Assembly (NCBI GenBank): GCA_021234155.1
Contig: JAJEKV010000041.1
Location: 12,412,689 to 12,476,688, forward strand
DNA from: Isoetes taiwanensis
Lineage: Eukaryota > Streptophyta > Lycopodiopsida > Isoetales > Isoetaceae
Length of the DNA: 64,000 nt
Direction of reading: 5' to 3'
The notes below the pieces were generated by a model. It was not told where the DNA came from, ran no database searches, and saw only the letters and a list, made by a program, of their open reading frames with translations. A program made the position numbers and the translations under genes. How positions within the stretch are numbered: position 1 is the stretch's first letter; every line of letters begins with the position of its first letter. Shown piece after piece: positions 9,751 through 34,559 of the stretch.

Positions 9751-9762
9751 ACCAAGCAGGAG
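9751..9762 (+). promoter_or_regulatory. Polypurine tract of the copia element
   Basis: AAGCAGGAG lies immediately before the TGTTGACT start of the 3' LTR, where plus-strand priming is expected. Confidence 0.6.
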
Positions 9763-10010
9763 TGTTGACTGATATGGTGTACGTGGTGACCTGGAACGGG
9801 CACATACATGCACAAGCGGTTACTTAAGCGGTTCCTTCAATCTCTCCTACCTTTGTGGAGAAATCTCAGTTGCTTTATTGTTCTATTTAAACCTACTCTT
9901 ATGATACATTTGATCATCTGAGAGGCTTTCATTGTTGTATTTGAGTTCACTCATTTTCTATCAATGCATGAGTTGATTTCCTCCTTTCTATGTTAGTCCT
10001 GAGGTTTGCA
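9763..10010 (+). repeat. 3' LTR of the copia element
   Basis: It is 248 bp and nearly identical to the 5' LTR. It ends GAGGTTTGCA before the TSD GGCAA. Confidence 0.93.
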
Positions 10011-11815: not shown

Positions 11816-13373
11816 GGTGGACGTCCGGCCACAAAGATAACGGTCCCGGGGCGATATCTTGATCTTGCCGTCACACGCTGCATACGCCCACTCGGACCGA
11901 CGCGGTAATGCATAACGGATAGCAGTAAGTAGCCCTTTGGGGCAACTTGTTAGATATGTTCACATGTTATTAATGTGCACATGTGCACATTAATGTGGGC
12001 ACACCTTTCCATGTTGGCATATTTTGCCACCTAGCCATTAAAGGCAAGTGGGGCCTTTTCAATTATCCCACATGCCAAAATGGGTAATTGAAAACCCTAG
12101 CCTAAACCCCATGTCTATTTAGGGTAGGAAAACCCTAGCTTGCTAGTTTTCGCCCCTTAGGGTTTTAGAGCTCGAGTTTTGCTGCCCCAGAGCCAAAACC
12201 GCCTCCGTGACACTGCCCAAGCGAATTGCACCATCAGTTCCCTCAATTGATCAGCCCGGCCAGATGGTTGAACTTCAGTCGAGGAGCCACTCAAGGATCG
12301 GGGTATTTGGTCAATTTAATAGCTTAAACCGTCTTCTAGTCATAGAATCAGTAGGTTTAGACTATTAAATTGCCCATAGCAGCTATCTAGATCTTAGATC
12401 TCGGACACTAACTAAAGAACCTAACTCTATGATTAGATCTAGTTCTTTAGTTCTTCTGTGATGTATTTGGATGATGTATCTCTGTGAACTCCTTGTATTG
12501 GGAAGGGGTAGAGGCCCTAAAGCTTGTAGTTGATGCTCCTAGAGTAGCCTCTCTAGCACATCAGAGATTCGCCTGTGGCACAAGAACCACACCTGGTTGT
12601 GGGTGAAGGGGCCAGACTGGCTTAGAAAGAGGTTCGTGTTCTGACTCTTGAACGATCCCTATGGTGTGTTAGTGCTACCAGGGATCATTGTGACTACGTC
12701 TAATGGCTTACCACTGAGTGCGGGTAAGGCATGGGCTCGACACCCGTGAAGTGGTGTACACTTTCCAGTGGGTTCAGTCGAATACGGCGTGGCCCTCTAG
12801 TCACCTCGAGTCAAAGATGTAGACCTGCGGAGGGAGTGATCCCTACCTGCCCCATCGGAATCGGGAGATGAAACCCGTGAATAGCCCTTTTGGCTATGCA
12901 TCCCGAGGCTGATCGAGTCCCAACACTTTTCAGCCTACTACGCAAAGTGTGCACTGTGAGGGGCGGATGGAGTGGACAACCCTATGCCATGTTCATATGC
13001 CGCCCAACTCCATTGCCATGAATTCGGCATGCGCAATGAACTCACGGAGACCCAAGCCGCCGGATCACTCCCTTGAGTCCGAGCCTGGGGTAGGATTCCC
13101 TATGTGATGTGGGTGACCATTGTCTATGCAGATGTTGATATACCACCCCTCCGGGTGGATGGAGGACGCTGGTACCGACATGTATGTTTACGCTTCCAGC
13201 CTAGGTAGGCCCCGAGGGAGACAGTAGAATGACACCTTCACTCTTCCCACCGGGACTCAAGTACGGGTGCGATTGATATGTGGAGGGCCCCTCAGACGCG
13301 ATGGAGCTGGTGTGGGGAAGAACTCCTGCTTGTATACCGGTGAGAGCACCGTGACGCAGTAGGGGACGTCACA
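11816..13373 (+). repeat. 5' LTR of the large chromovirus
   Basis: It ends GACGTCACA just before the primer site. It matches 38947-40507 over its full length, with many small indels and substitutions, often at CG- or CNG-containing sites. The left edge is fixed by homology to the 3' LTR start TGTGGCGTTCCGGCC. Confidence 0.85.
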
Positions 13374-13374: not shown

Positions 13375-13386
13375 TGGTATCAGAGC
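13375..13386 (+). promoter_or_regulatory. Primer-binding site (initiator Met tRNA)
   Basis: TGGTATCAGAGC lies one base after the LTR end and fixes the plus orientation of the element. Confidence 0.92.
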
Positions 13387-13576: not shown

Positions 13577-13646
13577 GGTCTCACATTTCGGCTACCGTCA
13601 TGAGAACTAAATTTTAGTTTTGAAGCGAGGCGCAAGCTGTGAGACA
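13577..13646 (+). repeat. Hairpin repeat copy 1 (degenerate left arm)
   Basis: The right arm GAGGCGCAAGCTGTGAGAC is intact. The left arm keeps only GTCTCACA. It has the same layout as copies 2-4. Confidence 0.6.
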
Positions 13647-13765
13647 TCGAGCCAAGAACACCAAAACATGATGAATTTGAGAAAAATAATGTGGTAAGGC
13701 TAATTCTAAGGTAGGAATTAGTTAGAATAGCATGTTTTAATTACCTAAAAACCCTAGAAATGTAT

Positions 13766-13836
13766 GAGATCTCACAGCTCGCGCCTGGTCGCAAAACTAA
13801 ACATTAGTATTGGAACGAGGCGCAAGCTGTGAGACC
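13766..13836 (+). repeat. Hairpin repeat copy 2
   Basis: CTCACAGCTCGCGCCT (13771-13786) pairs with AGGCGCAAGCTGTGAG (13819-13834), with one mismatch in 16. The loop contains AAAACTAA...TTAGT. It ends about 100 bp upstream of the first TATA box. Confidence 0.8.
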
Positions 13837-13937: not shown

Positions 13938-13946
13938 TATAAATAG
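13938..13946 (+). promoter_or_regulatory. TATA box of accessory cassette 1
   Basis: TATAAATAG lies about 100 bp before the MARTK start codon. The leader after it (CCCCCTCATTT, then CCCTAGAAATCCGCTC) closely resembles the leader after the second TATA box at 15893, so the two promoters look like duplicates. Confidence 0.65.
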
Positions 13947-14047
13947 ATGTAGAACCCCCTCATTTTTTTCGTCCAAGCCCTAGAAATCCGCTCTTCCCAA
14001 CTTAGGCGATCTTTCGGCGCTTTTATCCGATTGACGATCCGTAAAGC

Positions 14048-15300
14048 ATGGCCCGAACCAAACGTATCAAGAAGGAAGCGTTGCCAGCGAAACCACCAGC
14101 GCCACCGAGGCAGTAGATCATTCGAAGATGCTTCGGAGAGGCTCGCGAGGGGGTCGCTCACGGACGAGGAGCAAGACACGCCCGACCGATTGATGTCTTC
14201 AACCAAAGAAGGAAAGCAGACGAGGCCACATCACCGAACTCCATGGACGAGGAGACGAGGGAGGTGTATGAAGAAATAGAGCGGGAGATCCGGCAGCAGG
14301 AACAAGCAGAAGACCATTCAGACGCACCCACAGAGATCCTCGAGCAGGATGAGCAAGTGGTGTCCGGAGCCGCCAGAGGTAGCGTAATCTTAGAAGGTTC
14401 ATCGAAAGTACGGCCGCGTAAGAGAAGGGAAGACAAAAAGAGGAAAAGGGAGGAAGAGGAACAAAAGGCAGCAGAAGAGAAGAAGAAGGCGAAAGGGAAG
14501 TTCGTGGCTGGCACAAGGAGGACGAAGGATTGCCCGCCAAGGAAGAGGCCGAACCCCAAGATTGTCATCAAGGAGCGGCAACCCGACGAACCCCCAAACC
14601 CCTCCGACGACTCTTCTGATGGGGACTTCAACCCTAATGCTGCAGGTGGAAGCTCTTCCAAGCACCCAGCGACGAAAGGTGAAGTACCCCGAGCAGCCGC
14701 ACTGAAAGCAACCCCAAAGAAGATCAAGTGAGAAGCCCCCGAAAATACCCGGCATGGGATAGAAAGAAGCAACCACGACCTGCCCGGGAAGCCTACGTCA
14801 CCGACAGGGTGAAGATTTACGAGAGGAAGATGAGGGAGCACGAGGCCTACATGAAGAAATGGGAGGCCTACAGCAAATATTATGAAGAAAACAGGGTCAG
14901 GTTCATCGAGGGAGGGCGACCAACGAAGCAGCAAACCTTAAAGCCGCCACCACCGAAGCCCAAGGTTCCCAAGCCACCACCCAAGAAGAAAGCTGATAGG
15001 AAGGAGGTGGAGAGAAGAGCGTTAAGGGAGATTAGACACTTCCAACAAGAAAGCCACGGACTTCTAATCCCCCGCGGCCCCCTTCGCCTCTGGGTTGGTC
15101 GAGAAGTGATGCAGCCCTCTGAAACGGACTTTAGAGTCACGGACGAGGGCTGGCGGCAATGCAAGAGGCGGGTGAGGCAAAGATAGTACAACATTTTGAG
15201 GATTCAACGGCTTGCACTATTCACGCCAAGCGGGTAACCTAATCGCGGCAAGACATGAGTCTTGGCGAAATAGAAAAGGAGAACGGCCTTAGAACTTGTT
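14048..15300 (+). pseudogene. Histone H3-like (CENH3-like) protein encoded inside the chromovirus
   Basis: The reading starts MARTKRIKKE, like an H3 tail, and hits TAG at 14114. It then continues in shifted frames as a long Lys/Arg/Glu-rich and Pro-rich tail to about 15000. From 15019 comes the H3 alpha-N motif ALREIRHFQ and then LLIP. LLIP at this place is typical of plant CENH3, where canonical H3 has LLIRKLPF. After one frameshift near 15155, codons 15156-15239 give QEAGEA, HFED and a perfect IHAKRVT, which are the alpha-2/loop-2 signature of H3. A stop follows at 15240, with RQDMSL-like residues downstream. There are no introns. The H3 fold is seen directly; the CENH3 assignment is an inference. 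The copy carries at least three breaks. Confidence 0.8.
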
Positions 15301-15436: not shown

Positions 15437-15504
15437 GTCTCACAGCTCGCGCCTGGTCGCAAAACTAACTTTTAGTCTTGAAGCGAGGCGCAAGCTGTGA
15501 GACC
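15437..15504 (+). repeat. Hairpin repeat copy 3
   Basis: GTCTCACAGCTCGCGCCT on the left pairs with GAGGCGCAAGCTGTGAGAC on the right around a loop of about 30 bases. It is nearly identical to copy 2. Confidence 0.8.
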
Positions 15505-15636
15505 TCGCCCAAACTTGACCAAAACAGCTCCAAATCGACCAAATAAGGGGTCAATTCTGCCTGATTTGATGAGCCCATCACCTTTACACCATCAGTTTAC
15601 CCAAATTAGACACCTTTTGATCGAAATGAGACTGAT

Positions 15637-15703
15637 GTCTCACAGCTCGCGCCTGGTCAAAGAACTAAAAGTTAGTTTTTTTGAGGCATAAAGTTGTGAG
15701 ACC
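15637..15703 (+). repeat. Hairpin repeat copy 4
   Basis: The left arm is identical to copy 3. The right arm has decayed (GAGGCATAAAGTTGTGAGAC). It lies about 190 bp upstream of the second TATA box. Confidence 0.75.
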
Positions 15704-15892
15704 TCTTACCATTTCTTCACGGGACTTGTCAAAGTCACCTTCAACCTATTGCATAGCATCTTTTAGGTAATCTAGCCTTGTTCAAGCATCCCATATAGTC
15801 CTCAAAATCCCATTTTGACCTCAGATAGGCTAGAACTACCCAACCCCAGGAAATTTTCAAGTCATCCAAAAATTAGGGTTTTTTCCCTTTTT

Positions 15893-15901
15893 TATAAATA
15901 G
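15893..15901 (+). promoter_or_regulatory. TATA box of accessory cassette 2
   Basis: TATAAATAG is followed by ACCCCTCATTTCTC and CCCTACAAATCTGCTCC, which parallels the leader of cassette 1. Confidence 0.65.
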
Positions 15902-16035
15902 ACCCCTCATTTCTCAGATAGCACCCTACAAATCTGCTCCTGCCCTTCTAGCCGATTTCTCAACTCCCTGAGGCGCTCTTGCAACCGTTTTGTTACCCTC
16001 TTACGCAATTAATCAATGGGCTTCTGATTTCCACA

Positions 16036-17484
16036 GATGGTACAGCCGGCGCTCATCTTCTTGAGGCCGACGTCGACCAAATCTTCGGATCTTTAGGAAG
16101 GAGGTAGATGTCCAAGCAACCTTGCACGCGACCCAGCTTATAGTAGAGTCCCGACCGAGTTCCAAGCTAGGGTAGAACCGGTAGCCTAGTGCAACTCCCC
16201 CTTGTGTAGGCTATTTTGTTCCTAGACAGGTCCCTGCAGGCGGCATTAGACGATGTCCCTAACATCGCCAAATACCTCACAAACAAGGCGATCGCACACG
16301 AGCCAATGGTCCTAATCCAGCGGGACCAAGTACTTCTCTTTCAACACCGCCTCGGGCGATCTTTCTCACCCATCGCGAGAACACCCGGGGAAACCTCCAT
16401 TCCCCCATGGGCGTGGACCCATTAGCCATAGCGGCGAGCAACGGCTCCTCACACGGTATGAACAGGGAGCACGAAGGGAAGGAAGAAGACTTCGGAAGAA
16501 CAGGAATCAAGAAGAGGAAGACTATGTCGAAGCTCGACCCGGCCGAAGAGCGGCGACAAGCGAAACGAGTGGCAAGACTTGAAAAGAAGCCGGCAGACTC
16601 TCGAGTCGCGCCACCCCTCGGGTTAGGCATCACAAGCCTAGCTCCCATTATTGTCGAAGGTGAGGAGTCCTAAGCGACATTCAAAACCTCCCGGAGTGTG
16701 AGAGAAAGGAGTACAGGACGAAGAGTTGCTGCACTAACCCTCGAAAGAGCGGACTTGGACGATTTCATCGTCAGGGAGAATCCGACTTCCCCTCCAAGTA
16801 AGGGAAGCCGACACTTACACGGGAGAGTTTACCTCCGACATCCAAGCCTACAGCAACATCGTGCGATTATGGAGGCGGACAAGGCCGAGAACAAACTACC
16901 GACGGAGGGAAGAGTTCCTTGCTCTTGAGAAGCGCGGGGATCCACTATGCGACCTCAAACATCCTAACGGCAAGCTTCGTCCAGCAGCACCTCCCGGGAG
17001 AGGACAGGCTTAATTTCGACCTCGGGAGGGCTTCGACCAAGTCGAGACTACAGGGGAGCTCACCACGGTGGAGGTTGATGATTTCGGAAGCGAACCTGAG
17101 CTGGATACCGAAAGTGGCCGAGGACCCGCCTCGCAACTTGACAGTCACTCACGGTATTACCGCCACTGGCGATGGATGGAAGAATAGCGGTTATCCACCG
17201 CAAGTTCACCCCCGTGAGGCGAGGAAGGAGTATCGTTTCGATTGCACACTCGTGATTCGCCGGCATGCGGTTACCCCTTAACACCGAGTATGCAATCACG
17301 GTGAAGAGAGCGGTAGCACTTTCGGCGTCTTCGACCGCCATACCTTCACGGTGAAGAGGCAAGGCGCGATGGACAGCACCTTACACCTCCCACCGGGAAT
17401 AGAAGATTTGGCAAGAGCATTACAAGGTGGATCTCCGCCAATGTCCTTAGGAACTTGGGTCATTGATTGGGAACAGCCCAAGTG
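16036..17484 (+). pseudogene. Accessory cassette 2: unrecognised protein, frameshifted
   Basis: Coding-like patches follow the second promoter in shifting frames. They include a helical stretch (DDVPNIAKYLTNKAIAHEP, about 16250-16310), a basic segment (DPAEERRQAKRVARLEKK, about 16536-16590) and an acidic stretch (TTVEVDDFGSEPELDTE, about 17060-17115). A C-terminal patch ends ...TWVIDWEQPK and TGA at 17482. I recognise no family. The shared promoter suggests it is expressed with the H3-like gene; a link to histone or centromere biology is only a guess. It could also be an unusual gag-related product. Confidence 0.4.
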
Positions 17485-17639
17485 AAAAAAGTTCACGGAG
17501 GATAATCCATCTTACCTAAGCAACAACAGGAATGATTAGCCGTAGTTGTAATTTTTGTATTAGTGTAATATAAAATATAAATATAATATTCTCTTGCACT
17601 ATAAATGTTTTGTTGATATATTTTGTGTCCCCCCAACCA

Positions 17640-17814
17640 TGCCAACAAACATAAACAATGCAAGAAAACAAGGAAAACTAACCATGTAGCTATGAACCAC
17701 TTGTGTATGCAGCTAGAGGCCTAAGCGCAGGAGAACGACAACTGCGGGAACTTATAGAGGAACAGAGTCCGCCCAGGCCACGCCCGGCAAGGAACCTGCT
17801 TGAAGAATTTGGAC
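17640..17814 (+). pseudogene. Chromovirus gag, N-terminal part (split)
   Basis: An open stretch (about 17705-17814) reads GERQLRELIEEQ and ends EEFGQ at the AAAT target site of the 15.5-kb element. Removing that element and one AAAT joins this frame to MTPRRRNIAN from 33366 on without a shift, so both parts belong to one gene. The start is not certain. Confidence 0.5.
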
Positions 17815-18049
17815 AAATAACCATCATTCAATTAAATTGGGATTATGTCTTAATTTTGGGATAAATTTTATATTGCACTTTTTTAGTAACTTTGTTAAAT
17901 TCACTTTTTTAGTAACTTTGTTGCCCTTAGACTAGAATAGACGTTAACATATAATCACACACGGGAATATAAATTCACACCTTAACTTCAAATTACAAAA
18001 TCATATATCATGAAACTCAAGTAGTACACAACTTTTATTAAAAGTGATT

Positions 18050-20700
18050 GATACATAGTAACTGTTTATCATTTTTCCACCAACATCCCCAAGGATATGA
18101 GAACCTTATTCCTTACATCCTGAGGTATTGTAACTCTCGCTGTTTTACTAGGAATAGTTTTTGGAGTCCATGAGTACAATACGGTTTCAATGTCTAGCCA
18201 AAGATCAGGATCACTAGGATTTCTCCTCCACCTCTTTGTCCAACAATCTGAATATCTTTCTTTATCGGTGACATTACTCAACCGATGTCTTGGACACCAC
18301 CATTCCACGCCGCACCTTATTGAAGTTAACATCACCTTCTTCTTTGCAAATATGAGATAGTCCATCCCAACCACCTTTGGATAGGTCTCTAGATCTGGCT
18401 GGTTTTACTACTACAAATTGGTGGCACTCCACGTCGATTAGAAGGTTCATAACAATCCATGCCTAGATATTTTGGCCTATCCTTCTTAGGACCAACATAG
18501 TGTTTATCGAGTTGAGGAGGAGCATATGCCTTCACAATGCTACTAATGGTACCATCATCTTCGTCAGCACCAGCTAATGTTTTCCACTTACTTTTAGGGA
18601 ACCACCCTTCAAAGAAATTGCTACGAGGATGTGTCTACCTCATCCAACAAGTTGATCACCTTCTTCCAATAATCTATCAATGCGATTAGTCTCATCCGAA
18701 TTAGTTTGCCAATGCTTGATGTAGTCATTGATGCCATCCTTAGTCAAGCCCAATTGCTTGACTTCTTGATTGGTTTTAGAGCTTTTGGTTGACGGGGGAG
18801 GTATCATAGGCTTGCCATTTGCATCCTCAAGGCCAAATTTTCTGCCCCACCTCTCCACTTCTCCTCCGAAGGTCTCATTTTCCATTGCATGATTGGAATC
18901 CCTTCTCTCACCCAAAAAAGTGAATTGAAGAGGTCTAGAATGACCTTCCATGTCGAGAGCATAACCATCCACAAAACTCTTCCAATCGGGCACTTCTTCT
19001 ATGATAGATCCTATAGGAGATGGATTTGTACATCCATGAAATATTTCCAATAGCACGGGAAAGTTGGTAAGCTGTCTCATTGTCTCAATACATGACTATA
19101 TTTTCCAAACAATGCATCCACATCCTCATGAGTATGTCCAGGGCATTAGGAACCCCAAATTGACTCTTTCAAAAATACCCACGGTATGTTAAGTAGGATA
19201 GGAAAGAAAAACATCCACCTATTCTTATTTTGACCAACACAATTATCTAGTTGCAAGAGGAGCTTTACGGGCAGATCTCGAGGGTTTAGCACGAGATGTT
19301 GAAGCTCCAACATGTTCATTAGGTCCATTCCTCCTAAATCTTGCCTTGCTAAACTTTTCAATACTATTAGGGGTTCCATCCAACAATGCACTATGTAGTG
19401 CACGGCTAGTAGGATCACGTAGGTGACCATTGTAACCCTTCTCATAGTTTCTTAAACACCTCATGATACTCCCAATGTGAAAATCTGGACCATCACTCCA
19501 CAACTCTAAAACTGAAATGGCCATAATAGGTGCAGAGGCGCCCATGCAATATTGCCCCGGTCATTGAAATCTGCAAAGGGTATGATCTTCCACATGACTT
19601 AGGAATGTACTTGAATTGTGGAAGACAAGTCTTACGTTGGTCCATTTTATCATGTATAATACATAGATAGTTATTAGGTTCCATTGCGGATAAGGTCCTC
19701 CACATCCAATAAGTTGATCTACATGATAGTTGATCGTCATATGGTCCTTCATATGTTCCTTATCTTTGCCCTTAGACTTGGTTGCACGGTCTTATCTAGT
19801 GTCTCCTTGAGCTTAGCACATAAATTGCACTTGGCAAAGTTGTTTGAAGTTGCTATGGTCACATGCTTGAAATGCTTATTCCATAGCCTACTAAAACGGG
19901 GGCTGGGATATAGAGGCCACTCCAAGTTCTCAAGCAATGCATTTTATTTCCTCTAATATGCTCTTACGGGTACAATGGGATGGCAATCTCTTTTCAACAA
20001 TAACTCTACCTGTTCATCCTTCTTACTCTTATGTGGCATGTTTTCTGCATTGAAATCCACATATCTTTCAAATATTTCCTTTGCGACTATAGTTCTTGAG
20101 GTAGGCCTTACGGGCCGGTGTTCCCATGCAATGCAATTTTACTACCATTTTTCATGTCTCTTTTGCGGTTGTGCCAAGAAGAGGTTGGAATTCCATGTAT
20201 AGCCATCCATGCTTTTGAACATATCCACTTTCCATTCAATGGGAATCTTTTTTCTTCTTTGATCTTTCATCCCAATTGCATAGCCAAATATGGTGTACAT
20301 GAAATTCCTCCTGCTATCACACTTATGTTCACGATATGTAGCTCTTGCTCCCACCAACTCCTCTATTGTGAACATTCTAACACAAGAAGCCCAACAACAT
20401 TCACCTCCTCTAACCTTCATCATAGCCGGAGAACAATCATAATCGACTTGCATCTTTTGGTGGGATAATGTTTTGAAAGTTGGAAGTGGCCTCTTGCTAC
20501 ACCGTGTGAACATTGTTGACAATGGTTCTACATCTATAGGAAAGCGTGTAGTTCCCCTCGGTTGAATCTTGTCCCTAGGCCATGCAACAATAGTTGGAAC
20601 CTCTAGTTGCTTCACACAAGCTAGGCATTCTTGTTTGCTTTGAACCCTTTTCCTTCCAATTGTCATATAATTTTGAGATTGCCACACCTAACTTTGTCCT
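18050..20700 (-). pseudogene. Transposase-like protein of the GHTHEDVD type
   Basis: Minus-strand patches in shifting frames give a Cys-rich N-terminal part (about 20687-20142), ATSNNFAKCNLCAKLK (about 19860-19800) and NNYLCIIHDKMDQRK (about 19675-19630). They continue with LQLDNCVGQNKNRW (about 19260-19215) and GHTHEDVDALFGKYSHV (19143-19090). A basic C-terminus ends near 18069. The D-N-QNKN and GHTHED motifs, about 100 bp apart, mark a repeat-encoded protein family known from non-seed plants and algae, plausibly a DDE-type transposase. Several stops and frameshifts break the gene. The match rests on motif recognition only. Confidence 0.65.
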
Positions 20701-20761
20701 CCCCTAATCTTTCATCATTCCTTTGCATTGATAGGATCTGCTAGAACAATAATCCCTTCTC

Positions 20762-21064
20762 CTACTGCCTCTCTGTTGCATGCATGCAGGATCTTGACCT
20801 TTTTGTTTTTCCAATCGACCCGAGTATAAAGTACAATTTCCTTTCCTTTGGCATCATCCTTTTCATTTGAGGCCTTTTCCTTTCCTTTGCCATCATCAAC
20901 ATCATTTGAGTCTTTTCCTTTCCTTTGCCATCATGAACATCATTTGAGGTATTTTTCCTTTCCTTGGCCATCATGTTCATTAGTTGGGGATTTTTCCTTG
21001 CCTTGATCGGCATCATTAGGGGCTTTATTTTTAGCATTTTGCATGCCATTGACCTAGAATGCAT
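20762..21064 (-). pseudogene. Lys/Met-rich repeat patch upstream of the transposase
   Basis: The open stretch encodes imperfect repeats around MMAKERK. They come from a DNA minisatellite unit with CTTTCCTTTGCCATCAT recurring every 40-50 bp. It may be the N-terminal tail of the transposase or simply a minisatellite. Confidence 0.35.
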
Positions 21065-22700
21065 AAAAATATATAGTAAGTTAGCATATCCAAATAACCT
21101 CTCAATAACATGTTCATAAATGAAAGCCTCATATGTCTTATTCTATTTGATCATTCTATTTATATAATGGGATTCCCCAAGTTATTTTCCTCAACATTAT
21201 ATATAAATAAAACCCTCTACTTATTAGCCTTATAACTTGTATCCTATAATAACCTTTGTAATAAATTTTAACCTTGTAAAGGGATAACCCTTATGAGGGT
21301 TAACCTTAAAAGGTTAACTTTAACCATTAAAGGGATAACCTTGGTATCCTATAATAACCCTTATAATAAATTTAACCTTATTATTACAAGGGATAACCTT
21401 GGTATCCTATAATAACCCTTATAATAAATTTAACATTGTTATTACAAGGGATAAACTTCATGGTCCTTAAAACAATTAACCCGCAATAAATTTTTCGGAA
21501 GTTATAATGGCTGATACGAAATTTTGAAAGCGGTTATTATTTCAAGTTAGCATTCGTTTTTGAACTTTTTCTCTCTCACTTTTCAGGCTTCCAATTCCGG
21601 GCATTCAGCGCTTCCAATTTCTCGCTTTCTGCTTCCAATTTCTTCTCGGCTTCTATTTGCTTCAATCTGCTTCTCGGCTTCTATTATCTGCTTCAAACTT
21701 GGCTTCTGCTTCAATCTCGGCTTCTCGGCGTCTATCTGCTTTAAACTTCGGCTTCTATCTGCTTTTTTATCCGTTTTTATCTGCGCTTTCGGCTTCTACA
21801 ATCATTTTTATCTTGTTTTTTATCTCAAGGCTTTGAAGGTTTTTACGCTTCTACAATCTTACGCTTTAGGGTTTTTCGGCTCAAAGGTTTTTCGGCTAAA
21901 AGGTTTCTACTCGGCACTACGCTTTTACGCTTTAAACTCGGCTTCTATATGCTTTTCGGCTTCTATATGCTTTTTCGGCTCAATACAAGGTTCTATACAA
22001 GGTTTGTAGGCTCTATACAAGGTTTTCTGGTTTTTTTGGCTTTTCTGACTTTGAATAACTTTGGTTTTTTGTGTTAAAGCTTCTCGGCTGCTATTGCTTT
22101 TTCTCCAAATTAGCTGCTATTGCTTTTTCTCGGCTTCTTAAGGCTTCTCGAATCACTTCTTAAGGTTTCTCGGGTTAGTATTTACTGTTATTTACATAAA
22201 GTAGTTATTTTCCATAAAGCATGTTATTTACTTTTACATGCATCAGTTCTATTTCATATCATATCTGTTCTCTATCATATCATATTACTCTATCTGTTCT
22301 ATTTCATATCTGATCTATGATCTTGCTCTATGATCTAGATCATAGAGCAAGATCATAGATCTTCACTAGCTCTTCCTCTATCTGTTCTAAATAATGAACT
22401 AAAACAATGAACTAAATATTGAACTAAACAAGGAGTATTATTATTATATATCTGCTCTAACTGGCTTTATATTTTGAATTCTCAAGATTGCGTCGCATTC
22501 CGCATTATGTATTTTGTTAGAATAATATGTTGGAATGGGGAAATCGCTTGGCGCATTTCTATTTTTGGGTTACGTTTTCCACTAGGTTAATCAAATCGCC
22601 CGGCGGCGTTTTTAGTTTGGCATTTCAATTTCATACGGCTCTATACAAATGCGCCCGGCGCGTGTGAAAATAGATCGTGCTAATTACTTTTCTCGTTCTA
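21065..22700. repeat. Non-coding: A/T and pyrimidine-rich repeats between divergent gene blocks
   Basis: At 21240-21450 the motif GGGATAACC plus CTTATAATAAATTTAACC recurs several times. At 21560-22160 a degenerate CGGCTTCTATCTGCTT unit recurs many times, with few purine runs. No gene is supported; the short open frames here are translations of the repeat. The region sits between the minus-strand transposase and the plus-strand exon block, so it may hold the shared promoter. Confidence 0.6.
22312..22361. repeat. Perfect 50-bp palindrome
   Basis: The sequence from GATCTATGATC to GATCATAGATC equals its own reverse complement over all 50 bases, centred on TCTAGA between 22336 and 22337. It would extrude as a cruciform or hairpin. 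Confidence 0.9.
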
Positions 22701-22702
22701 GT

Positions 22703-25700
22703 GCCATGGATTTTCCTTATGCATGGACCGGCTGGTTCAAATACACCGGCCGGGTTCTAGTTCCCCGGGCGACCATCAACTCGGACCACGTACAAGATAT
22801 TACTTGAGTGTCTTTGTTCAAAAACGTTCAAAGAGAGTTGGAGAATCCATTAAACGCCTGTGCTGTCGGGCCATGGGTACACTTCCATCGCATCTATGGA
22901 CATATCAGACTCCTCATGCTCTTAGTAAGGCTCATGCCAACAAATAAGTACAAGGATTTGATTTATAGTATCGAGGGATCGATACAACACTCTGGTTTGG
23001 AGACTTCGACATCCCTCGGGAAAGATGAGGATCTGTCATATCGAGGGTGGTTCAGGTGGGACTTCTTCTTGGGATTGGGCGGATGAAGTGGGCTGTCGAC
23101 ATATTGTAGAGATAGAAAGAATTGGCGCTATTTTTTTTTGAGAGAAGAAGAAATGTACATAACTTTTTGGAATATGAATACAAACTCGCGCTGGCGCAAT
23201 TTTGCACTATACTTTTACGTCATTAGTTTTTTTTTTTTTATATGCAATGTCGACAACATTGAATCTGTGATGCCCTCCAGCCCGATTATGACCAACCCCA
23301 AGAAACTACATATTTTCATTAATGTGTAGTTTCATGGGGTTGATAAGATCGGCTAAAGACCATCCACGAGAATTCAAAGTTCACAACATCTTGAGATGAT
23401 ATGATATATTCTTTTTTTTGAATATCCAAATATACATACCTTTTTCGGCACGTTCTTTTGGCCATGCTACAAATGTGCCCCACGCTTTCACCAAATCAGA
23501 CGCTAAGGGATGTCTTCTTGGAAGAGCCTCATCTTCATAATTGCAGTTTAGAATAGAAATCTTACGTAAACTTGTTCCAAAGAGGAACACCATGACACAT
23601 AGAACTTGGATTCAAATCTTCGATTTTACACAATCCTACTGAAAGGCTTCAAGTTTCTTTGTAAAAAAGATAGCATTCTTTTCCGACGATAAAGAACCGA
23701 ATGCATTGTAAAAATAGAGGGCGAAAAATTGAGAACAAGAGAATGCATTTAATTCACCATAGTTCAGCGGACATCGAATGGGAATTGAAGGCGGCTCGAT
23801 CGAATGGATTGAAGGCGCTCGATCGATCGAATGGGATCGAACGGATCTTTAGGCCTCGATAGTCGATTGTTCTTGGGCGCTCGATACTAGGAATGATCTT
23901 GGGCTCGATAGTAGGTGGCGATTAGGTGGTAGTAGATTGCCACATATCGTTTCTTTGAAATTAATAATTAATTGTTATCTTGAAATTGCACTAAAAAGAA
24001 AAACACAATTTAAATTTGTAAATGGCGGATCGGGCGGTTAATTAAGGCAGTATAAATTTAAAAAGGGCTTAATTTGAATTTCTGATTTGTAAATCGGCGG
24101 CCTAGATTATGAACGCATACATATAAGTTTAAACCAAAACCCCCAGTCTCATACTATCCGCGACTTGCGGTTCTATGGCGTCTAGAGGATCCGCCGGTAG
24201 AAGGCCGGCCCCGGTAGAGGTGGGCGACAGCAAAGCACAAATCCCAAGCACGGAGGCTCTTTGAACAAGTGAAAGTTTTGATCCAACAAAGCCTCCGGGT
24301 AATTGATCCGTTTTTGTTTTGTAATTGATTTCTGTGTCCCTTTTATTGTTAGGGTTTCTAGGATGTTTTTCAACCCTGTGTATTTTACATTGTATCGTGT
24401 CTCGTGTATTGTCTACCTTTCATATTGTTTTACGTGTCATTTCTAACGCTTTTTACTACCTTGTTTTGTGTGTTTTTGTTATAATCTTCTCCTTTACTCC
24501 GATATGTTTTTGTTGGAACAATTCTCCATTTTGTATAATGTAGACCCGTGTAAGTCTTTACTTCAGTATTCTCCAGTTCTTTTGACAAGTCTTTTTTTTG
24601 TAGCCTAGTATGTCTCTTATAAAAGAGAAGTGTCTGCAGAGGTCCCCTCTTAAGAACGCTTCGGTAGCGATTTATAATTATGAGTGGTTTTGGTTGTCTC
24701 GCTACTTTCCACATTGTACAATTTATGTTTTTGAAAGTAAAGGCGTCTAAAAAAGCGCTTCGTAGCGATTTCATTACTCACCACATGATTGTAACTTTCG
24801 GGATCTTCTAAAAATGTGAAAAAGAAAAGCAAAGCACAAGCGAGGGTCGTGGACATCCGCACGAGAAAAAAACAAGAACGGATGAAGATGTATCGATTGC
24901 AGATTTGGCACACGTTGTGACCATTGGACGATACGACCCGAAATAATGAAGGCTCGGTAGAGCCTCCATGTCCGAAGAAGATCTACGAGAGGGCTCGAAT
25001 GGTATGTGGAGATCTTCAAGACTAGCGGAAAGACAGATCTGATTTTCATGTCTAGAGTTAAGGGAAGCAGATCAAATGAAGAAACAAGGTATTACGATCA
25101 CATGCGCGAAGAACGGGGCGATTCTTACTTGTTCCGTATTATTTGAAGCGGGTCGAGGAAAAATAAAACGTATTGAAGAAGTTAAATTATCGCGATTGCT
25201 AGTTCCTTTAAAGAGGCGCCCTAAGAACGGATGAGGCCATGAGATAACCTCTTCAAATTTGGCTGGTCGGGTGATCTATTGACACCAAAAAAATATGTGA
25301 AGGTCTGGTCACCGTGGAGAAGAGCAATCAGTACAAGGCGTCGTCCTAGTCCGGTACCTACAAGCTTTAAAAAGAGAAGGAAGATGCAAGTTCTAGAGCC
25401 GGAAACACGGACGTTCTAGGCATTACGGATATGACTAGTGATGATGACAAGGCGAGCGGTTAGAGGCCATGAGCAAACTCAAGAAATATCGCCGACAAGT
25501 ATCCATCGGGCCTTAGCTTCACGACGATCCTATCCATGTCGACGGGGCTTTTTCAGGTCCATGAAGGCTATGTTTGTCGGCCGAGAAGATTTGACAAGCA
25601 AAGACGCAATGGAAATAGTCGACAAAGATGATAGAAAACCGAGGGGGATGGTGCCACCGCCAAGCAGATGTGGTGCCTTTTGGATATGAAGACGGGCGGC

Positions 25701-27690
25701 GAAGGTGTTGATATGGAATAAACTTGAAGATTTGGCGGCAACCTCGATATTCACTTCATGATAATAGATGGCCAAAGATTGATTGGAAGCTGGTAAGGTT
25801 TTGATCGGGTCAAGCACAAAAACCGAAATCGGTTATTCTATAGATCGTATTCATGTCGAAATTGCCGATTCCTCGGTGGCTCCACAACAGCAGCCGAAAT
25901 TAGCCTAAATCGGTAGCTCTTGAATGACATGGGAAAGACATTCCTGCATAAAAGGTATTTTTTATGTTCCACACATAGCGTTCCAAATCGGGCCAAAGCG
26001 TTTACGCTAATCGCGTATTTATAAAACAAACGGCGGGCCCGATTTCTTCATATGGCTCGCGATTTTCTAAATACGCGATTAGCAAAATGCGCTGGCGCTT
26101 TATGTTGTTATTTGTGTGACGGATTTACAAAAACGCCACCGGGCGAAATTCTTCATCATGAAGAAATCGGCGCCCGGCGCGTTTTGTAAATACGTGATTA
26201 ACTTAAAAACGGCGGGCGCGTTTATATTGTTACTTTCACACATTTTATTTTTTTATCTAACGGCCCATATTTTGCAGTCCGTATGTGGAGCAGCTTATGC
26301 ACGCCGTAACCAATGGATCGAATATGGAAAACCAATGCCGACCGCACAAGGGGCAATCTAAGAGTGCGAATTCAAATTACTAGAAAGGACAACGTACAAA
26401 CCATAATACGTGACAAGAACAAGGCCACTAGATCAAAGAAGAAAAAGGGGATGCAATAAGCCGCAATGTAAGAGCAAGATTGCCAAAGGATGCCCGCAAG
26501 ATTGTTTTTTTCTTGACGGTGTATGGGAAAAGTGGAACAAATTTTGGGATTTATTCGAAAAGAAGTTGCCGATTCAGATGGCGGGTTTCCTCTTAAGATA
26601 CGTCTATTTTTGATATAGGTATCACGCGAAATGAGAAAGGCACAAGGATTGGATGATGCGTAATTAATCTACGTTCTAGATAGTTGCATCAGAAAGGAAG
26701 TTATCTACAAGAAAACGGCTCTGCAAAGAAAGCACTTGACATCTTTCAAGATGCATGCGAATCGATAAAGAATATGAAAGTCCCTAAAAAAGCCATTGGT
26801 GAAGAACCGCAAAGGCTCTCGGGGAGACATGATGTTATCGAGAGATAGGCTTAATGCAAAAGTACAACGTATCTAATGATGACATTAAGAAATATGTATT
26901 TTGGTCAAAAGATTTTGTGAAGCAGCAAAAGGCGAAGAATGTGGCAACTCTTAAGGGGATTCACACGAAAGTTGCGTCTGACCTAAAAAGAAAAGTTGCT
27001 TTGGTGAAGAAGGCGGGAGACGAAGTCTCCTTTTTTCTATAAGGTGTCCATTTGGTTATAAGTGTGCCATGCCAGGAGGTAGGTGAAGGGCCAACCGACA
27101 TCACTCTATTTGTTCTTGATAGCCGTGGCACGAGATGGACACAGGATGATTACAGCACCTTCTTCAACACATGCAGTGGTTTGACGACTGAGATGCATTA
27201 TACTACTATCGCGGTTGCCACTCCGACATTTCCTACGCGATATGCACTAGCTGCGCAAATGATGTCGAATGCATTAAAGTGATGAGGCAAGCAAGAATGA
27301 TAGATGAAAACAAAGATAGTGAGTTTAGTACCGAAAAGTAAGATCTCACATGTGCTAGTCCTTATGATAGCCATTATGGATGATAAAGAATATGAAAGAC
27401 TCAAGGGAAACCGTAAGGTGAGAAGATTGCTTGGCGGTGCTATCGGGCTAGATGAACCCCTATTGAAGAATGTTTTTATGTCGAATCCAATTGCGAAGAC
27501 AAAGGGAAAGGACTGCGGATGTGGATGTGGACTGGGACGAAGAGGAAGAGGAAGAGGAAGAAGAAAACTGGGTCGACCCTGTCCTTAATTCACCAATCAA
27601 GTATGAGCTCTTGGCGCATAAGGGGAGGCTGAATAAATGCGTGTTTTCTTTGGCCCTTTTCGGAGTTTTCTGATTGAAGCCTACGCCCGT
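22703..27690 (+). pseudogene. Block of broken, unrecognised exons in the 15.5-kb element
   Basis: Coding-like patches on the plus strand are separated by A/T-rich, intron-like DNA. They lie at 22703-23090, 24177-24270 (MASRGSAGRRPAP), 25070-25220 (GITITCAKNGAILTC), 25440-25690, 26440-26600 (GCNKPQCKSKIAKGCPQDC), 26850-27280 (LFVLDSRGTRWTQDDYSTFF) and 27300-27690 (acidic tract VDWDEEEEEEEE). I recognise none with confidence. They may be parts of one spliced gene of the transposon or captured host exons. Stops and frameshifts are frequent. Confidence 0.35.
25990..26225. repeat. GC-core palindrome cluster in intron-like DNA
   Basis: Several short inverted motifs with GC-rich cores (for example GCGCCCGGCGCG and CGGCGGGCGCG) lie between matching A/T-rich arms such as AATACGCGATTAG and its variants. 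The same style occurs at 22540-22670 and 28236-28352. Nothing coding is seen between them. Confidence 0.45.
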
Positions 27691-28235
27691 TAGAGTCTAC
27701 GTGTTGGGAGTTTCATGTTGGAGGTTATGTCGGGGAAGCTCCGAAGCTAGCTAGGAAATGCCAAAGTGTGGTCCCTCGATGGTCAAGCCAAGGACTTCCT
27801 CGATATTTTTTCGAGAAAGTGCTAGAGGTGGCACCTAGGGGTCCACTAGGTAGTGCAAAAATAAAGCTTCCAGCTCTAAGTCCAGCTTACCCTGCAGACC
27901 GGCACAAGAGCGGGAAGAAATGAGAAAGCATATAGAGGGGCATAAAGAAGAATATCGACAAGCAACAGCTTAACTATGCGGCGGCGTGCCTATCCTTCCA
28001 ATCACATTGGAAAATCCGGCGAAGTGGATGTGGTAACGCGAAACGAAGAAGACAAAATCCTAGATGATACAGTTGGATTCGAAAGCTCGAAAGGTTATTA
28101 TATAAAGAGTAATGAAGTATCAACCATAGTTCAAACATAAGTGATGTGGTCGACACTTTCCGGCAGACAAGAAGCTTGAGAGTAAGCTCATCATTGGCGG
28201 ATGTTGAACGGGAACCAGAAAGGTATGTTATTCAA

Positions 28236-28352
28236 AGCGAAATGAAAATCGGCCAGCGCCGATTTCAATTCTTCAAACAGAATTGAAAATCGCCGCGGCG
28301 ATTTCAATTATTCCAACAGTGAAAATCGCCAAGCGCGATTTCAATTTTCTTT
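28236..28352. repeat. Three tandem palindromes with GAAAATCGCC...GCGATTTC
   Basis: Three units of about 40-45 bp each contain an inverted repeat of the form AAAATCG(G)CC-NN-GCGC/GGCGATTT followed by CAATTNTTC. The arms are nearly the same between units but the central bases differ. Confidence 0.7.
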
Positions 28353-28385
28353 TCCTTTGTCTCACAAGTGTGTGCTTTATTATTA

Positions 28386-28990
28386 CGGACCTAATCCATT
28401 TCCTCCAAAAATTCTGGTGTTCGATTTGAATGGAGTGCTCTGCAAAACGTTACCTAAAGCACAATTTCCTTTATCATGGTATGCAATGTAAAACCATTTG
28501 AGACATATACTGAAAATGGGTATATCGGCAAGGTCAGATCACGAAGGGAGATGTTAGACCAAGCTTTTTTTATTTAGATTTACAGTAATTTGGTCGTCGA
28601 TGGAGAATAGAAATATACAGGAAGTTTTGAGAGTAGTTCCCGAGTTACATAGAGATTGGGCATCTGTTTTGGGATCGAGCAAATGTAAGTCATTCAATAA
28701 CCCAAAGGATCCTACAGTAAAAAAATATTTGTGAAATGCTTGAGCGACATGATGGATGACTTGGGCGCTCAGAGAAGGAAGACATCATTATAGTTGATGA
28801 TGGCCTTGAAGTGTTGCTTCAATCAGTCACGATCCACTAAATCCACCATCCTATCATCCTCGAGGATTTTGACAAAGATGACTTCACCGCTTCGTTTTGT
28901 CGGCATCTTGTGCCTAAATAGCTACAGGAAAAAGGTGAAGAGATACAAACACTATACCGCAACTTAATGGACGAGGGAAATTGACAGGGG
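28386..28990 (+). pseudogene. FCP1/SCP-like HAD phosphatase remnant
   Basis: The first patch reads PPKILVFDLNGVLCKTL. DLNGV is the HAD motif I of plant FCP1-like (NLI-interacting factor) proteins. It is followed in shifted frames by VIWSS (motif II), a WDRAN segment, FNNPKDPTVKKIF and IIIVDDGLEVLL (motif III region). The order and spacing fit the C-terminal-domain phosphatase-like family. In-frame stops and frameshifts make it a pseudogene. It lies inside the 15.5-kb transposon, so it is best read as a captured host gene fragment or the last exon of a transposon gene. Confidence 0.6.
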
Positions 28991-29258
28991 ACCTAGAGAA
29001 GATCGTTCTAGAAAGGGAACTTTTTTGATATATATATATGTATACAGGAAATACACTTTCCAAAAGTTTTGAATATAAGAAATATACTTTACACCAAACT
29101 CTTTCGAATATATATTGTGTTCTTATATCAGCATTATTGGTTCATTAATGCGTATTGTTCTTTTATATTCGTGTATGGTTTGCTATACTTGCAATAATTT
29201 GTATGTATATACCGTCAATAATTTAGGTGTCTATAAACATTATGCATGAAATTGGCAA
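28991..29258. other. A/T-rich spacer
   Basis: The sequence is A/T-rich with TATATATATGTATA near 29029. No gene or recognisable repeat is seen up to the nested LTR element. Confidence 0.6.
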
Positions 29259-29263
29259 ACCAT

Positions 29264-29653
29264 TGTTAGCCCCCTTTTGGGCTAAGTCATAAACGTTAGT
29301 GGCATAGGCCACATGTCATCATAGATGTTAGTGGCACATGGCCACATGTTGTCATCATATAGGGTTAGGGTTTGCTCACTATATAGAGAGCATTTCCCCT
29401 CATTGTTTAGGGTTTTAGCTCACGTTTGGGCGCCTCATTTTGTGGAGGTTTCAGGTTTTCACGTTTTTGGAGGCGCCCTCATTTTGGCAATATGATCCAC
29501 TTTGTTCATTTCTTGGCATTTGTGCTTTGTTTGTGTTCTTGGGTTTCCTCCCCTTTGTTTTGTCATTCTTGAGCATTTGTGGCAGCCTTGTTGCATCCGC
29601 GACCATGGTACCTGCTGCAGCAAGGTGCATGCCAAGAACCCCATATTTCAACA
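29264..29653 (+). repeat. 5' LTR of the non-autonomous element
   Basis: It starts TGTTAGCCCCC and ends CATATTTCAACA. It is closely similar to the 3' LTR except for small indels. Confidence 0.9.
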
Positions 29654-29654
29654 C

Positions 29655-29672
29655 TGGGCGTCGATGCCGGGT
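29655..29672 (+). promoter_or_regulatory. Primer-binding site, Asp-tRNA-like
   Basis: TGGGCGTCGATGCCGGG resembles the plant Asp-tRNA primer site (TGGCGCCGTTGCCGGGG) with a few changes. This differs from the Met-tRNA site of the other elements here. Confidence 0.5.
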
Positions 29673-32330
29673 TAAGCTCAAAATTTCTTGATCCTTTGTT
29701 GTTATCCTGTTGTCTTCTTTGCTCTCATGGTTCTTGATCTTTGAAAACTTTGTGTACACTACTCTAAACTCTTTTCCCTTTGCCCAACCAGGCTGAATTG
29801 TGCACGGAGGCCTTGCTGCATTCATTTGCCCAACCGGGGCGAATTATTCGAGGAGGCCCTTTGTCTTTCAAATCAAACCAGCGGTGATGATAAGCCGGCT
29901 GATCAATCAATCTTGTTCAAAAGCTGTTTTCAAAACTCTGTTCTTCAATTGCGGCAAGTACGATTAATGCGATTACGGCATTTTGGAGTGGTGGATGACA
30001 CTTCATTCTTAAAAAATTTACCGAGAAAAATGGGTTTCTCACAAGCTTTTTTCGTCCCATTTACGTGCGGGGACGTTTTCTTTGAAAAGCGCCAAAAATA
30101 TCATGCTTTTTCTTTGCCTCTGAAAGCTTTTTTTTTCCACATTTGGCGGGACGTTTTGCTGTTTTGTTTAAAATTTCAAAAATATCCTCTTGTTTTCTTT
30201 GTCTTACGTCATCCGCAAGAAACTATGGGTTATCATACAATCACCCTGTTTGGCGTGCCAAAGCGAAGGCTCTTGTTACTCTTGTTACAAATTTTTTCAA
30301 CACTCTTCAACAATCATCTTCAAAGAAAGCTTGATTCGGCATTGGCAAAGATTCATGCAACAACAAATTATCAACACATCTGCACAACAATCTACAGCTC
30401 AGATCTGTCTGAGTTCTTGTTCATAAATTTTCAAGAGGGCCAGCACTTGGGCTAGCCCCCATTCCTCTCTGTTCAAGCCTATAGAGGCTGCGGCAACAAC
30501 TCAATCGATCACATCAAGCACATCCCGAAGACTCGGGTCGAATCTATGCGCAAAAGCTTTACAACAATCAAATCAACACAACATTTCGTATTAAGTTTTT
30601 TAGGAGGGCCAGCACCTTGGGCTAGCCCCCTTTCCTCTGTTCAAGCACACAACAAAAGAAAACAGCAGCAGTTTATTTTTCAAGCAAGCAAAGATCTCTC
30701 AGCAGACATTTGGCCTTCGGTTTGGCTGGTGCGCAAGCATCTGCAAACAAATCTTCAAGTCGACTCATACGCAACAACAAACACGCGGCATCGCACACAA
30801 AGAAACAAGCACAAAGATTAACATGGGTATGCCTCGGTCGATGTCTCCGATCTAGTATTTTCAAGACTTCGATGTTGTTTTTCACCGTTGAAGCAAGCAC
30901 AAACATCCCACTAGCAGGGCGGACGCCTTCAAATCCAACCACCAGTTCAGTCTCTGTTACAGCAAATCCGGCCACCATTTGCAACGAATCCAGTAAATAT
31001 AGCAACTAACTGTGTTGCTCCAGCAAATCAGGCTGCCCTTGTGCAGAATCATGCAAATATCTACCATCCAAACTCTGTCTTCCAAGCAAAAACCGGCCCA
31101 ATAGCTCAGATCTGGCCGCCATTCTTGCAGACTCCAGCAACCCACTATGTTTTTCAAGCAAATCCGGCTATTGAGCAGGATGCCAAGATTCAAACAAAAA
31201 CAATCCGAACTTCTCGGCTATTTCAAGGCCAGGCCATTTTGACACCAATCCGGCCGCCTCTCGTGATTCAAGCGATTACATCAACAAAATCGAAGTTACA
31301 AACCGTATGAGACCCATTTTCTTTGTTCTTGTTGCAACCCGACCCATACCGGCCGAAGCAGTAAAAGATTTTTAGGGCAATTTTTTGTTCACGGCTAAGA
31401 TTTGGCCTTGACTCTATGGCCCAGATACACTGCCATTTTAGGGCATACACTTTCTCCGCGGAAGTTCATGCAGCGGCCCACCCCGCAAACACTTTCATCA
31501 CGCAACCAACAACGGCTTGACTGAACAACTTATTTGGTCAACACTTATTTTCCCTACTCAACCCGCGGGCCGCATTTGGACCACTTTGCAATTTTCCCTC
31601 TTACCCACCCCCGCGGAGGATGCCAGAAATCTTACCCACGCCAAGCTTGAAAATCATTTGCCCATAGCCACTCCGCATACCCGGTGGCGACGCTTATCTG
31701 CGCCATGCGCTAGTCATTTTACCTTTGTTAACACGCGCACATGTTTGTCACAACCAACCACGGGCCTTGTTAAAACCCACGCCCCATTATTTTGTTATGT
31801 GCATACTCTAACACTTGACACATTTGGCCCGGTAACTCCTCGCACTTTTTCCAGCCCACCCACGAGCTACACTTTGGCGACTTTTTTGGTCACGCCCAAC
31901 CAAGGGCCCCTCTTGCCAAGCCCACCCCCACAGTTCACACTTTGAAATACTTTTAGCAACACTTAAGAGCCCGCTTTGAACCCTTGCAAGTTTTTTCTCC
32001 GCCCCACCACGGGCCATCCTTACGCGCTTGTCCACGCCCGTGGTTGATATTTGGTGCTTACATTTTTTTTGAAGACCCTCTATCATTATTTTAAGTTGTA
32101 TTTTTGCCACTATTGTTTACAATTGCCTTCCCCATGATATAAGGGATGGCCATCATTATTTATTGCCCCTATGTGATCTACACGGCATCAACATTCTTTT
32201 TGATCTAATTCGTCCACCAACACCTTGAAGAAGACTTTTTGGCAAATATTTTTGTTACTTCCCTCGTTTTTGTAAACATGTCAAACCTAATATTATAAAG
32301 GTTTGCATATAGTGAGGTTTGGTGGGGAAG

Positions 32331-32711
32331 TGTGCCTTATGGGCTAAGTCATAAACGTTAGTGGCATAGGCCACATGTCATCATAGATGTTAGTGGCACA
32401 TGGCCACATGTTGTCATCATATAGGGTTAGGGTTTGCTCACTATATAGAGAGCATTTCCCCTCATTGTTTAGGGTTTTAGCTCACGTTTTTGGGCGCCTC
32501 ATTTTCAATGGAGGTTTCAGCTCACGTTTTGGCGCCTCATTTTGGCAATATGATCCACTTTTGTTCATTTCTTGGCATTTGTGCCTGTTTGTGTTCTTGG
32601 AGTTTCCTCCCCTTTGTTTTGTCATTCTTGAGCATTTGTGGCAGCCTTGTTGCATCCGCAAACCATGGTGCTAGCTGCAAAGGTGCATGCCAAGAACCCC
32701 ATATTTCAACA
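32331..32711 (+). repeat. 3' LTR of the non-autonomous element
   Basis: It is 381 bp, starts TGTGCCTTATGGGC and ends CATATTTCAACA just before the second ACCAT. Confidence 0.9.
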
Positions 32712-32716
32712 ACCAT

Positions 32717-33333
32717 CGGCCGGCATATACGCTTTGTTATTATGGCACATTCTATTACGCGGATGAACCACCTTGAGACCTCTGCGGTGCCGCGAGCTAG
32801 AAATAGAACTTAGGGACTGGCTTGATGTCGTTGCTATGAATCGGCCCGCTTCTATCCCGATCCCCTTTGATGTTGTAATCCATCTTATATGGAATCCGAG
32901 CATGGTTTGTTCATGATCAAAAGGATCTCAAAAGATCACCTTCTTACCGTCGGCGATGATTCGGATTAGTTTTTAAAGTTTATGTTCCACTATAATACGT
33001 TATTTATGGGAATAAAATCGCTACCACGCGATTTGACCCTTGAAAAATCTACGCTCAGCAACTTGCTTCTTTGTTATTTTTATTCAAAAACACTACAATT
33101 TCAATGTTTAGATTTCGTTTTGTCGCTTAGGTGATTGCACGTAATTAATAAGCAATTCCTACTTTTATATTGCCAACATTCTTTCATAATATGGGTCATT
33201 TGGACCTAATATTTGGATGCCTTGCATTTCAACATAAAATGCATCTTCCTAGCCCGAAAATGAACTCGGTGCAAAAAAGTGTGGTTAATTCAATATAATG
33301 GTCAATAAATAGCTTATACAGTGATTTTGGAAT
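32717..33333. other. Right end of the 15.5-kb element, non-coding
   Basis: I see no gene or clear repeat between the nested LTR element and the right TIR. The composition is A/T-rich towards the end. Confidence 0.6.
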
Positions 33334-33369
33334 AGACATAATCCCAATTTAATTGAATGATGGTTAAAT

Positions 33370-34510
33370 GACCCCGAGAAGAAGAAATATCGCAAATGAG
33401 GACGGACCCCGAGCAGATAAAGGCTTTGCTAGCCGCTGCAAGGAGCGAGGTTCGGTGGGTAACGCTCAAAAGCGCATAAGCATCATTTCGGAGGAAACGT
33501 GTAGAGACAGGAAGAGGAACAAGAGAGGAAGGTCCCCGGTTCGGACTCCTCCGATTCAATTTCAGATTCGAGACTCGGTTCAGGAAGAAGAAGAGCGAGA
33601 ACCAAGACCGACCGGATGGAAGGCGTAGAGAACACCCCGGACGAGGCGACAAAGGGACACAAGAACCTCGACTACGGAAGAAAGTAGACTGTGATTGGGA
33701 AATGTTTGGAAGGCCGAAGCTCGAGCAATTCTCAAAGGGGCGAACACGGTCGCATGGAGCATGAAAGGCATGGCTTGACGAGATGAGCAAACACGGCAAT
33801 GCCTATGGTATGAAGGATAAGGATAAAAGGCGTGGTGGCAACGGCCAACCCGAAGGGGAGCAGCACGCATTTGGTGGAAGGGGCTATGCAAGGCTCATGG
33901 CTTAAGCAGGGATGCTTGCAGGTTCAAGAAGTTTGCTAAAGCCTTCAAAGCCGCCATTACGTTCCAAAGAGCACAAGTCGGTATGATCTGGCAGTTCTGT
34001 GTTGCGACAAGGCAACAAGTCGATCTTTAAATATACGAGGAATTTACGAGGCTAAAGGTCAGTATGTGCAAAGTTAGGTGAGAAGCATGCGGTGGAAAGC
34101 TACATTGAAGGTCCTGAATGAGGAGATCCGCAAGCTTGTAAGGGCAATAAACCCTAGAAACGATGCTCGAGGCGGAGTCCAAGGCAATAAGCTTGCAAGG
34201 AACGGGACCTCGCCGAATGGCGAGGATGAGGCAAAGATTACCAAGATAAAGGCAAGGCAACAGGCGGTTTTAGCCCGAGGACACCCGGCCAGGGACCAGC
34301 TAGAGCCCCATATAGTGGCAATCAAGGGAAGCGGCGGAGAAGAAGCAGGTGTCTTTCAAAGACAAACAGGAGGGTCAAACTACTCCAAAGCAAAGGCGAT
34401 CCTTTCGCAGGCCATGCCAAGGAAAAGAGACAGAGTGCATAGAAAAGCGGCTTTGCTTCAGGTGTTTTCCCCAAGGCCATAGGACAAATAACTGCCCATA
34501 CGTTATGAGT
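33370..34510 (+). pseudogene. Chromovirus gag, C-terminal part with zinc knuckle
   Basis: The frame MTPRRRNIAN continues the gag part left of the transposon. A basic, Arg/Glu-rich stretch (33370-33620) and broken capsid-like patches follow. At 34454-34495 a CX2CX4HX4C zinc knuckle is intact (CFRCFPQGHRTNNC), the nucleic-acid-binding motif of retroviral-type Gag proteins. Several frameshifts lie between. Confidence 0.65.
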
Positions 34511-34559
34511 GCGGCCTAGCAGAGTTGGGAGATTGGGACACCACAATGCGGCGACGGCG

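Follow-up and report, generated by a model that had tools for sequence, protein, structure and literature searches.

A divergent histone H3-like gene within a chromodomain-bearing Ty3-type LTR retrotransposon of Isoetes taiwanensis

Why would a plant LTR retrotransposon carry a gene for a histone? This question is raised by a 64-kb stretch of the Isoetes taiwanensis genome (64,000 nucleotides; hereafter the window), in which an intronless histone H3-like gene lies at 14048-15300 on the + strand, inside a Ty3-type LTR element. We asked whether the homology is real, from which kind of H3 the sequence might derive, and whether the gene belongs to the element or merely travels with it.

The window has a GC content of 43.6% and is dense in retrotransposons. 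A Ty1/copia element with LTRs 96-98% similar over ~250 nt lies at 5331-10010; a search with the protein of its 959-aa open frame returned 16 proteins from plants, a fungus, and unnamed sources, the best by score being 33% identical. A different Ty3-type element is present in several diverged copies, in opposite orientations, at 1-5100 and 44850-56100.

The element carrying the H3-like gene is a single Ty3-type LTR element spanning approximately 11816-40510, with an apparent length of 28.7 kb and the following features:

11816..13373, + strand: 5' LTR, ending CA just before the primer site
13375..13386, + strand: primer binding site TGGTATCAGAGC, recognized by sequence
13577..13836 (13577-13646 and 13769-13836), + strand: first hairpin pair, fold z -2.4 and -8.2
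13938..14047, + strand: first TATAAATA box and 5' leader of the H3-like gene, delimited by local alignment
14048..15016, + strand: N-terminal part of the H3-like gene, with a MARTK start, rich in K/R, D/E, and P, frame broken
15017..15289, + strand: histone H3 fold, with alpha-N, alpha-1, loop 1, alpha-2, loop 2, and a decayed C-terminal end
15437..15704 (15437-15504 and 15637-15704), + strand: second hairpin pair, fold z -7.8 and -5.3
15893..16036, + strand: second TATAAATA box and leader, 5' of the second unit, delimited by local alignment
16037..17817, + strand: second unit, broken frames with basic stretches, towards gag
17818..33366, no strand: nested inverted-repeat transposon of 15.5 kb with 33-bp perfect terminal inverted repeats
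33367..34516, + strand: putative gag region, with a CCHC knuckle at approximately 34448-34501 that reads CX2CX4HX4C
35371..35923, + strand: reverse transcriptase in two frames, PF00078 E 7e-12 and 1.1e-7
37599..37998, + strand: integrase SH3-like end and degenerate chromodomain, PF24626 E 9.7e-21
38947..40510 (end approximate), + strand: 3' LTR, preceded by a purine tract

The two LTRs are ~90% identical by blastn (11817-13349 against 38948-40483) and have diverged by a K2P distance of 0.0997 over 1483 aligned columns. The primer site is one that we take to be of the methionine-tRNA type, and the PF24626 match identifies the integrase end as a Tf2-type SH3 domain. Pfam returned no match for the chromodomain region alone (piece 37858-38058); in frameshift-tolerant alignments, three chromodomain reference sequences scored 89, 48, and 39, each higher than all 60 shuffles, and the best score compared with 23.3 ± 4.3 for the shuffles (0 of 60 as high). 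With its LTR pair, primer site, reverse transcriptase, Tf2-type integrase end, and chromodomain, the element has the sequence hallmarks of a chromovirus, as the initial annotation of this locus had proposed. Gag was placed, provisionally, from a zinc-knuckle match that is weak (E 0.033, under the Pfam family cut-off), and apart from the knuckle the three pieces of this region submitted to Pfam gave no match.

Much of the apparent 28.7 kb is due to insertion of the nested transposon, which carries DUF7869-containing ORFs on the - strand (18640-19451) and is foreign to the original element. The layout reads LTR, primer site, a unit made of hairpins, TATA, and the H3-like gene, a further unit made of hairpins, TATA, the second unit and gag, then pol and LTR. 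Pfam, searched up to E 10, matched none of six pieces within 16210-17861; the second unit may represent another additional gene or a lengthened gag. The initial annotation had set the H3-like gene between the primer site and gag; it does lie upstream of gag but does not adjoin it, with both the second unit (15437-17817 including its hairpins) and the 15.5-kb transposon intervening before the knuckle near 34.45-34.50 kb.

The H3-like gene starts 0.66 kb past the primer site, in the same sense as the reverse transcriptase and integrase. Its MARTK start opens a charged stretch of ~320 codons that precedes the fold. In two open pieces, the second extending partly into the fold, K+R fractions are 0.23-0.28 and D+E fractions 0.13-0.19. 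One open stretch in the N-terminal part runs to 204 codons, a length that is only modestly unusual (equalled or exceeded by 23 of 1000 shuffles). The fold itself occupies the last ~90 codons and is divergent. Without any alteration of the sequence, piece 14728-15186 matched PF00125 over profile positions 8-78 (E=0.055, 14.2 bits) and piece 15150-15239 matched positions 81-109 (E=2.8e-5, 24.8 bits)—in profile order and nearly abutting, each alone scoring below the curated cut-off of 26.4 bits. When the breaks were read through as X, the match rose to 49.7 bits (E=5.2e-13), well above that cut-off. The best PDB match by sequence was histone H3.3 (E 5.7e-16), and the best 60 of 175 PDB matches were all H3 or H3 variants rather than H2A, H2B, or H4. 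In a frameshift-tolerant alignment with the Arabidopsis H3.1 core, 43 of 88 residues were identical and the score was 151, as against 24.5 ± 3.1 in 40 mononucleotide shuffles, a control that rules out chance resemblance to H3; the same kind of alignment traces the C-terminal end beyond the stop codon that follows IHAKRVT (15240-15242), to approximately 15286. The profile search for a histone fold, which the initial annotation had proposed as a check, thus bears out its call of H3 homology, and at the level of sequence we regard the gene as confirmed at 14048-15300 on the + strand; the MARTK start, the absence of introns, and the long charged tail were likewise correctly read.

A motif scan of all three frames found ARTK at 14051 only, and ARKS-type motifs (the contexts of H3K9 and H3K27) occur in none of the three, where a frame break could hide one. 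A protein-database search with the H3-like sequence returned no relative; the same collection also holds no close relative of the window's copia protein, and this negative therefore carries little weight. Searches of viral and prokaryote contigs likewise gave no relative, as expected for a plant element.

From which H3 might the sequence derive? The initial annotation called it a centromeric variant on the strength of LLIP, and a source in plant CENH3, used by the element to reach or mark centromeric chromatin, has some evidence on its side: LLIP and RHFQ both occur in plant CENH3s, identity to maize CENH3 (44/89) is equal to that with H3.1 (43/88), and in an 11-row tree maize CENH3 is nearest by path. 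In that tree, however, no branch is starred, and the H3-like sequence, at the end of a branch of 1.75, is left unplaced. In frameshift-tolerant alignments, all four canonical H3 cores (145-151) outscored the six CENH3/CENP-A cores (89-122); loop 1 fits canonical H3 ungapped and is thus of H3 length, whereas the CENH3/CENP-A cores, all six of them, align only when gaps are opened between alpha-1 and alpha-2. Among the best 60 of 175 PDB matches, which are canonical H3 and H3 variants, CENP-A does not appear by name. Neither the lengthened loop 1 of a plant CENH3 nor a closer resemblance to CENH3 than to H3 was found, and we consider a centromeric source improbable. The LLIP observation stands, but not the label drawn from it; the gene is best described, on present alignments, as a divergent H3 whose source the tree does not place.

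Evidence that the gene is part of the element comes from a duplicated module. Each hairpin pair consists of two palindromic hairpins of ~70 nt, arranged in the same order; the two hairpin-pair regions share 65% identity over 273 nt and one consensus fold, for which there is weak covariation, both partners having changed in 1 of 25 pairs. Downstream of the hairpins, 13938-14032 is homologous to 15893-15990, with an alignment score of 55 against 24.7 ± 4.6 for shuffles (0 of 1000 as high), and of the four TATAAATA occurrences on the + strand of the window, two fall in the duplicated modules. By alignment, the H3 unit and the second unit thus have a common opening module, in which two hairpins are followed by a TATAAATA box and a leader, and through this shared module the H3-like gene belongs to the element's own plan. 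We regard the module as a putative promoter, and its palindromes may bind protein as DNA or fold as RNA structures. The window yielded nothing in scans for Rfam families and tRNAs, and a promoter/terminator scan, whose models are bacterial and not applicable to plants, gave one promoter-like and no terminator-like hit, neither above shuffles.

The history of the gene is more difficult to read. Its frame is interrupted ~4 times between 14048 and 15242, in keeping with the several breaks noted initially, and two frames compete near the N-terminus, so that this copy does not have an intact open frame; the breaks may represent decay or, in part, assembly error. The LTR pair is separated by 0.10 differences per site, or ~0.05 per LTR, a level at which at most ~15% of codons would be changed. 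Given this LTR difference and a core with only 43 of 88 residues identical to H3.1, most of the divergence predates the present insertion, which favours either long residence of the gene within the element or the capture of an already divergent variant. Tests for selection do not settle the matter in favour of retention: when neutral drift was simulated to 43/88 identities, 28-31% of runs had at most one stop, and the paucity of stops in the core is therefore no proof of selection, while a conservative-change test on the core gave P=0.062.

The LTR differences are of an odd kind, which bears on whether all of the frame breaks are real. They show no excess of clustering in 20-column bins (24 empty bins versus 23.9 expected), although stretches of 214 and 151 columns are identical. 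Of the difference events, 71% lie near CG, as against 35% of columns. Among 57 difference clusters, 33 are complex and eight are single transitions, whereas in seven of the other eight pairs of repeats complex clusters make up 12-31% and single transitions 40-65% (nine pairs compared in all including the LTRs, not all of them independent). Consensus error in methylated repeats is one possible explanation of this pattern, though not proven. A direct repeat pair within the nested transposon (29273-29653 and 32335-32711) resembles the LTRs in this respect, with 6/11 clusters complex and 0/11 single transitions; its differences are mostly complex or indel.

The explanation we favour, at a probability of roughly 0.55, is that the H3-like sequence is a gene of the element that acts through nucleosomes. 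A chromodomain Ty3 element would have acquired an intronless H3 coding sequence between its primer site and gag and retained it as a gene of its own, served by a promoter-like module homologous to the one that opens the gag-side unit; the H3 part would then have diverged to about half identity, with the long charged N-terminal stretch keeping its MARTK start. Since this is a single histone without partners, the element-made H3 would need host H4, with which it may pair to enter nucleosomes positioned on the element or on its targets; such nucleosomes may weaken silencing. An H3 that lacks ARKS-type motifs could form nucleosomes free of K9 and K27 marks, and the absence of these motifs fits the proposed weakening of silencing. 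A stronger version of this proposal, in which the element lineage encodes a replacement H3 without K9/K27 contexts, expressed from an internal promoter, to form nucleosomes that silencing cannot read or remodel—a chromatin decoy—is speculative, and we think it rather unlikely.

Nucleosomes containing H3 are the substrate of transposon silencing in plants. A study of Arabidopsis indicates how H3 variants matter there (PMC10529913): DDM1 promotes the replacement of H3.3 by H3.1, heterochromatin in ddm1 mutants is kept from being methylated by the deposition of H3.3, and another H3 variant, MGH3, is resistant to DDM1 remodelling.

Several observations weigh against a retained element gene, namely that a single copy of the element was examined, that its frame is broken, that its stops are compatible with neutrality, and that neither the 204-codon stretch (23/1000 shuffles) nor the conservative-change result (P=0.062) is decisive. 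The broken single copy and the failure of the neutral simulations to reject drift are also what would be seen if a retrocopy of a host H3 or H3 variant had been caught by one element lineage and carried without function, and there is a precedent in Mycosphaerellaceae, where the H3 copies captured by hAT elements are all described as inactivated, with no retained function (PMC6710886). Yet the divergence is older than the insertion while the fold can still be read end to end, and the duplicated module stands 5' of the H3-like gene, both of which sit poorly with mere carriage; we view such a passenger as possible, but with the odds against it. The long K/R- and P-rich stretch could alternatively suit a basic protein whose target is not host chromatin but the nucleic acid of the element, which it would condense as some giant-virus histones condense viral genomes; viral histones that package genomes do exist (PMC9145170). 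Only one histone was found here, however, the H3 fold normally requires H4, and viral histones that occur singly are believed to become part of host nucleosomes (same source), which makes a packaging role very improbable.

What would an H3 gene of the element mean? Plants silence retrotransposons through H3 marks and the replacement of H3 variants, and an H3 supplied by the element would, if the favoured reading is correct, attack silencing at its substrate and represent a retroelement counterpart of viral histones. The way in which H3 variants govern the DNA methylation of transposons could also be tested concretely on an H3-carrying element. Were the gene no more than a passenger, this would still be the first H3-bearing LTR element in the open-access literature searched, in which we found no LTR element with a histone; the initial annotation, which knew of no plant LTR element with such cargo, agrees with this.

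The separate ingredients—H3 capture, ORFs ahead of gag, and captured regulatory domains—are each known, and it is an H3 within an LTR element that is new to the open-access literature searched. The capture of H3 by a mobile element has been described for hAT DNA transposons of Dothideomycete fungi (PMC3538342, PMC6710886), which similarly bear an H3-like coding sequence. Those elements are DNA transposons with near-identical or RIP-mutated H3 copies, whereas the element described here is a plant LTR retrotransposon with a strongly diverged H3, a long N-terminal stretch, and a module common to the gag side. A further comparison is with Retrosat2, RIRE3, and RIRE8, which have been placed under the Del/Tekay chromoviruses (PMC6317226) and are likewise plant LTR elements with an extra ORF (ORF0) upstream of gag-pol (PMC3485330). 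Within the available text of the latter source, however, ORF0 is given no histone assignment ("histone" has 0 occurrences) and no duplicated hairpin/TATA module is reported. LTR elements can also capture ORFs downstream of pol, according to a review (PMC6431247). In Phalaenopsis, Gypsy elements carry an m6A RNA demethylase domain and resemble the present case in being large elements whose captured regulatory gene is believed to work against control by the host, although the cargo is different; the accompanying screen of 121 angiosperm genomes names no histone in the portion available, which does not name all 15 domains (PMC9289625).

Another parallel is bracovirus H4, a single viral histone with a 38-residue extra tail that can join host nucleosomes and change expression (PMC9145170, PMC5423620). 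Both are core histones encoded singly by a mobile agent, and both have a lengthened N-terminal tail; the bracovirus protein derives from a DNA virus and is ~87% identical to host H4, whereas the Isoetes sequence is an H3, ~49% identical to its canonical counterpart, and resides in a retrotransposon.
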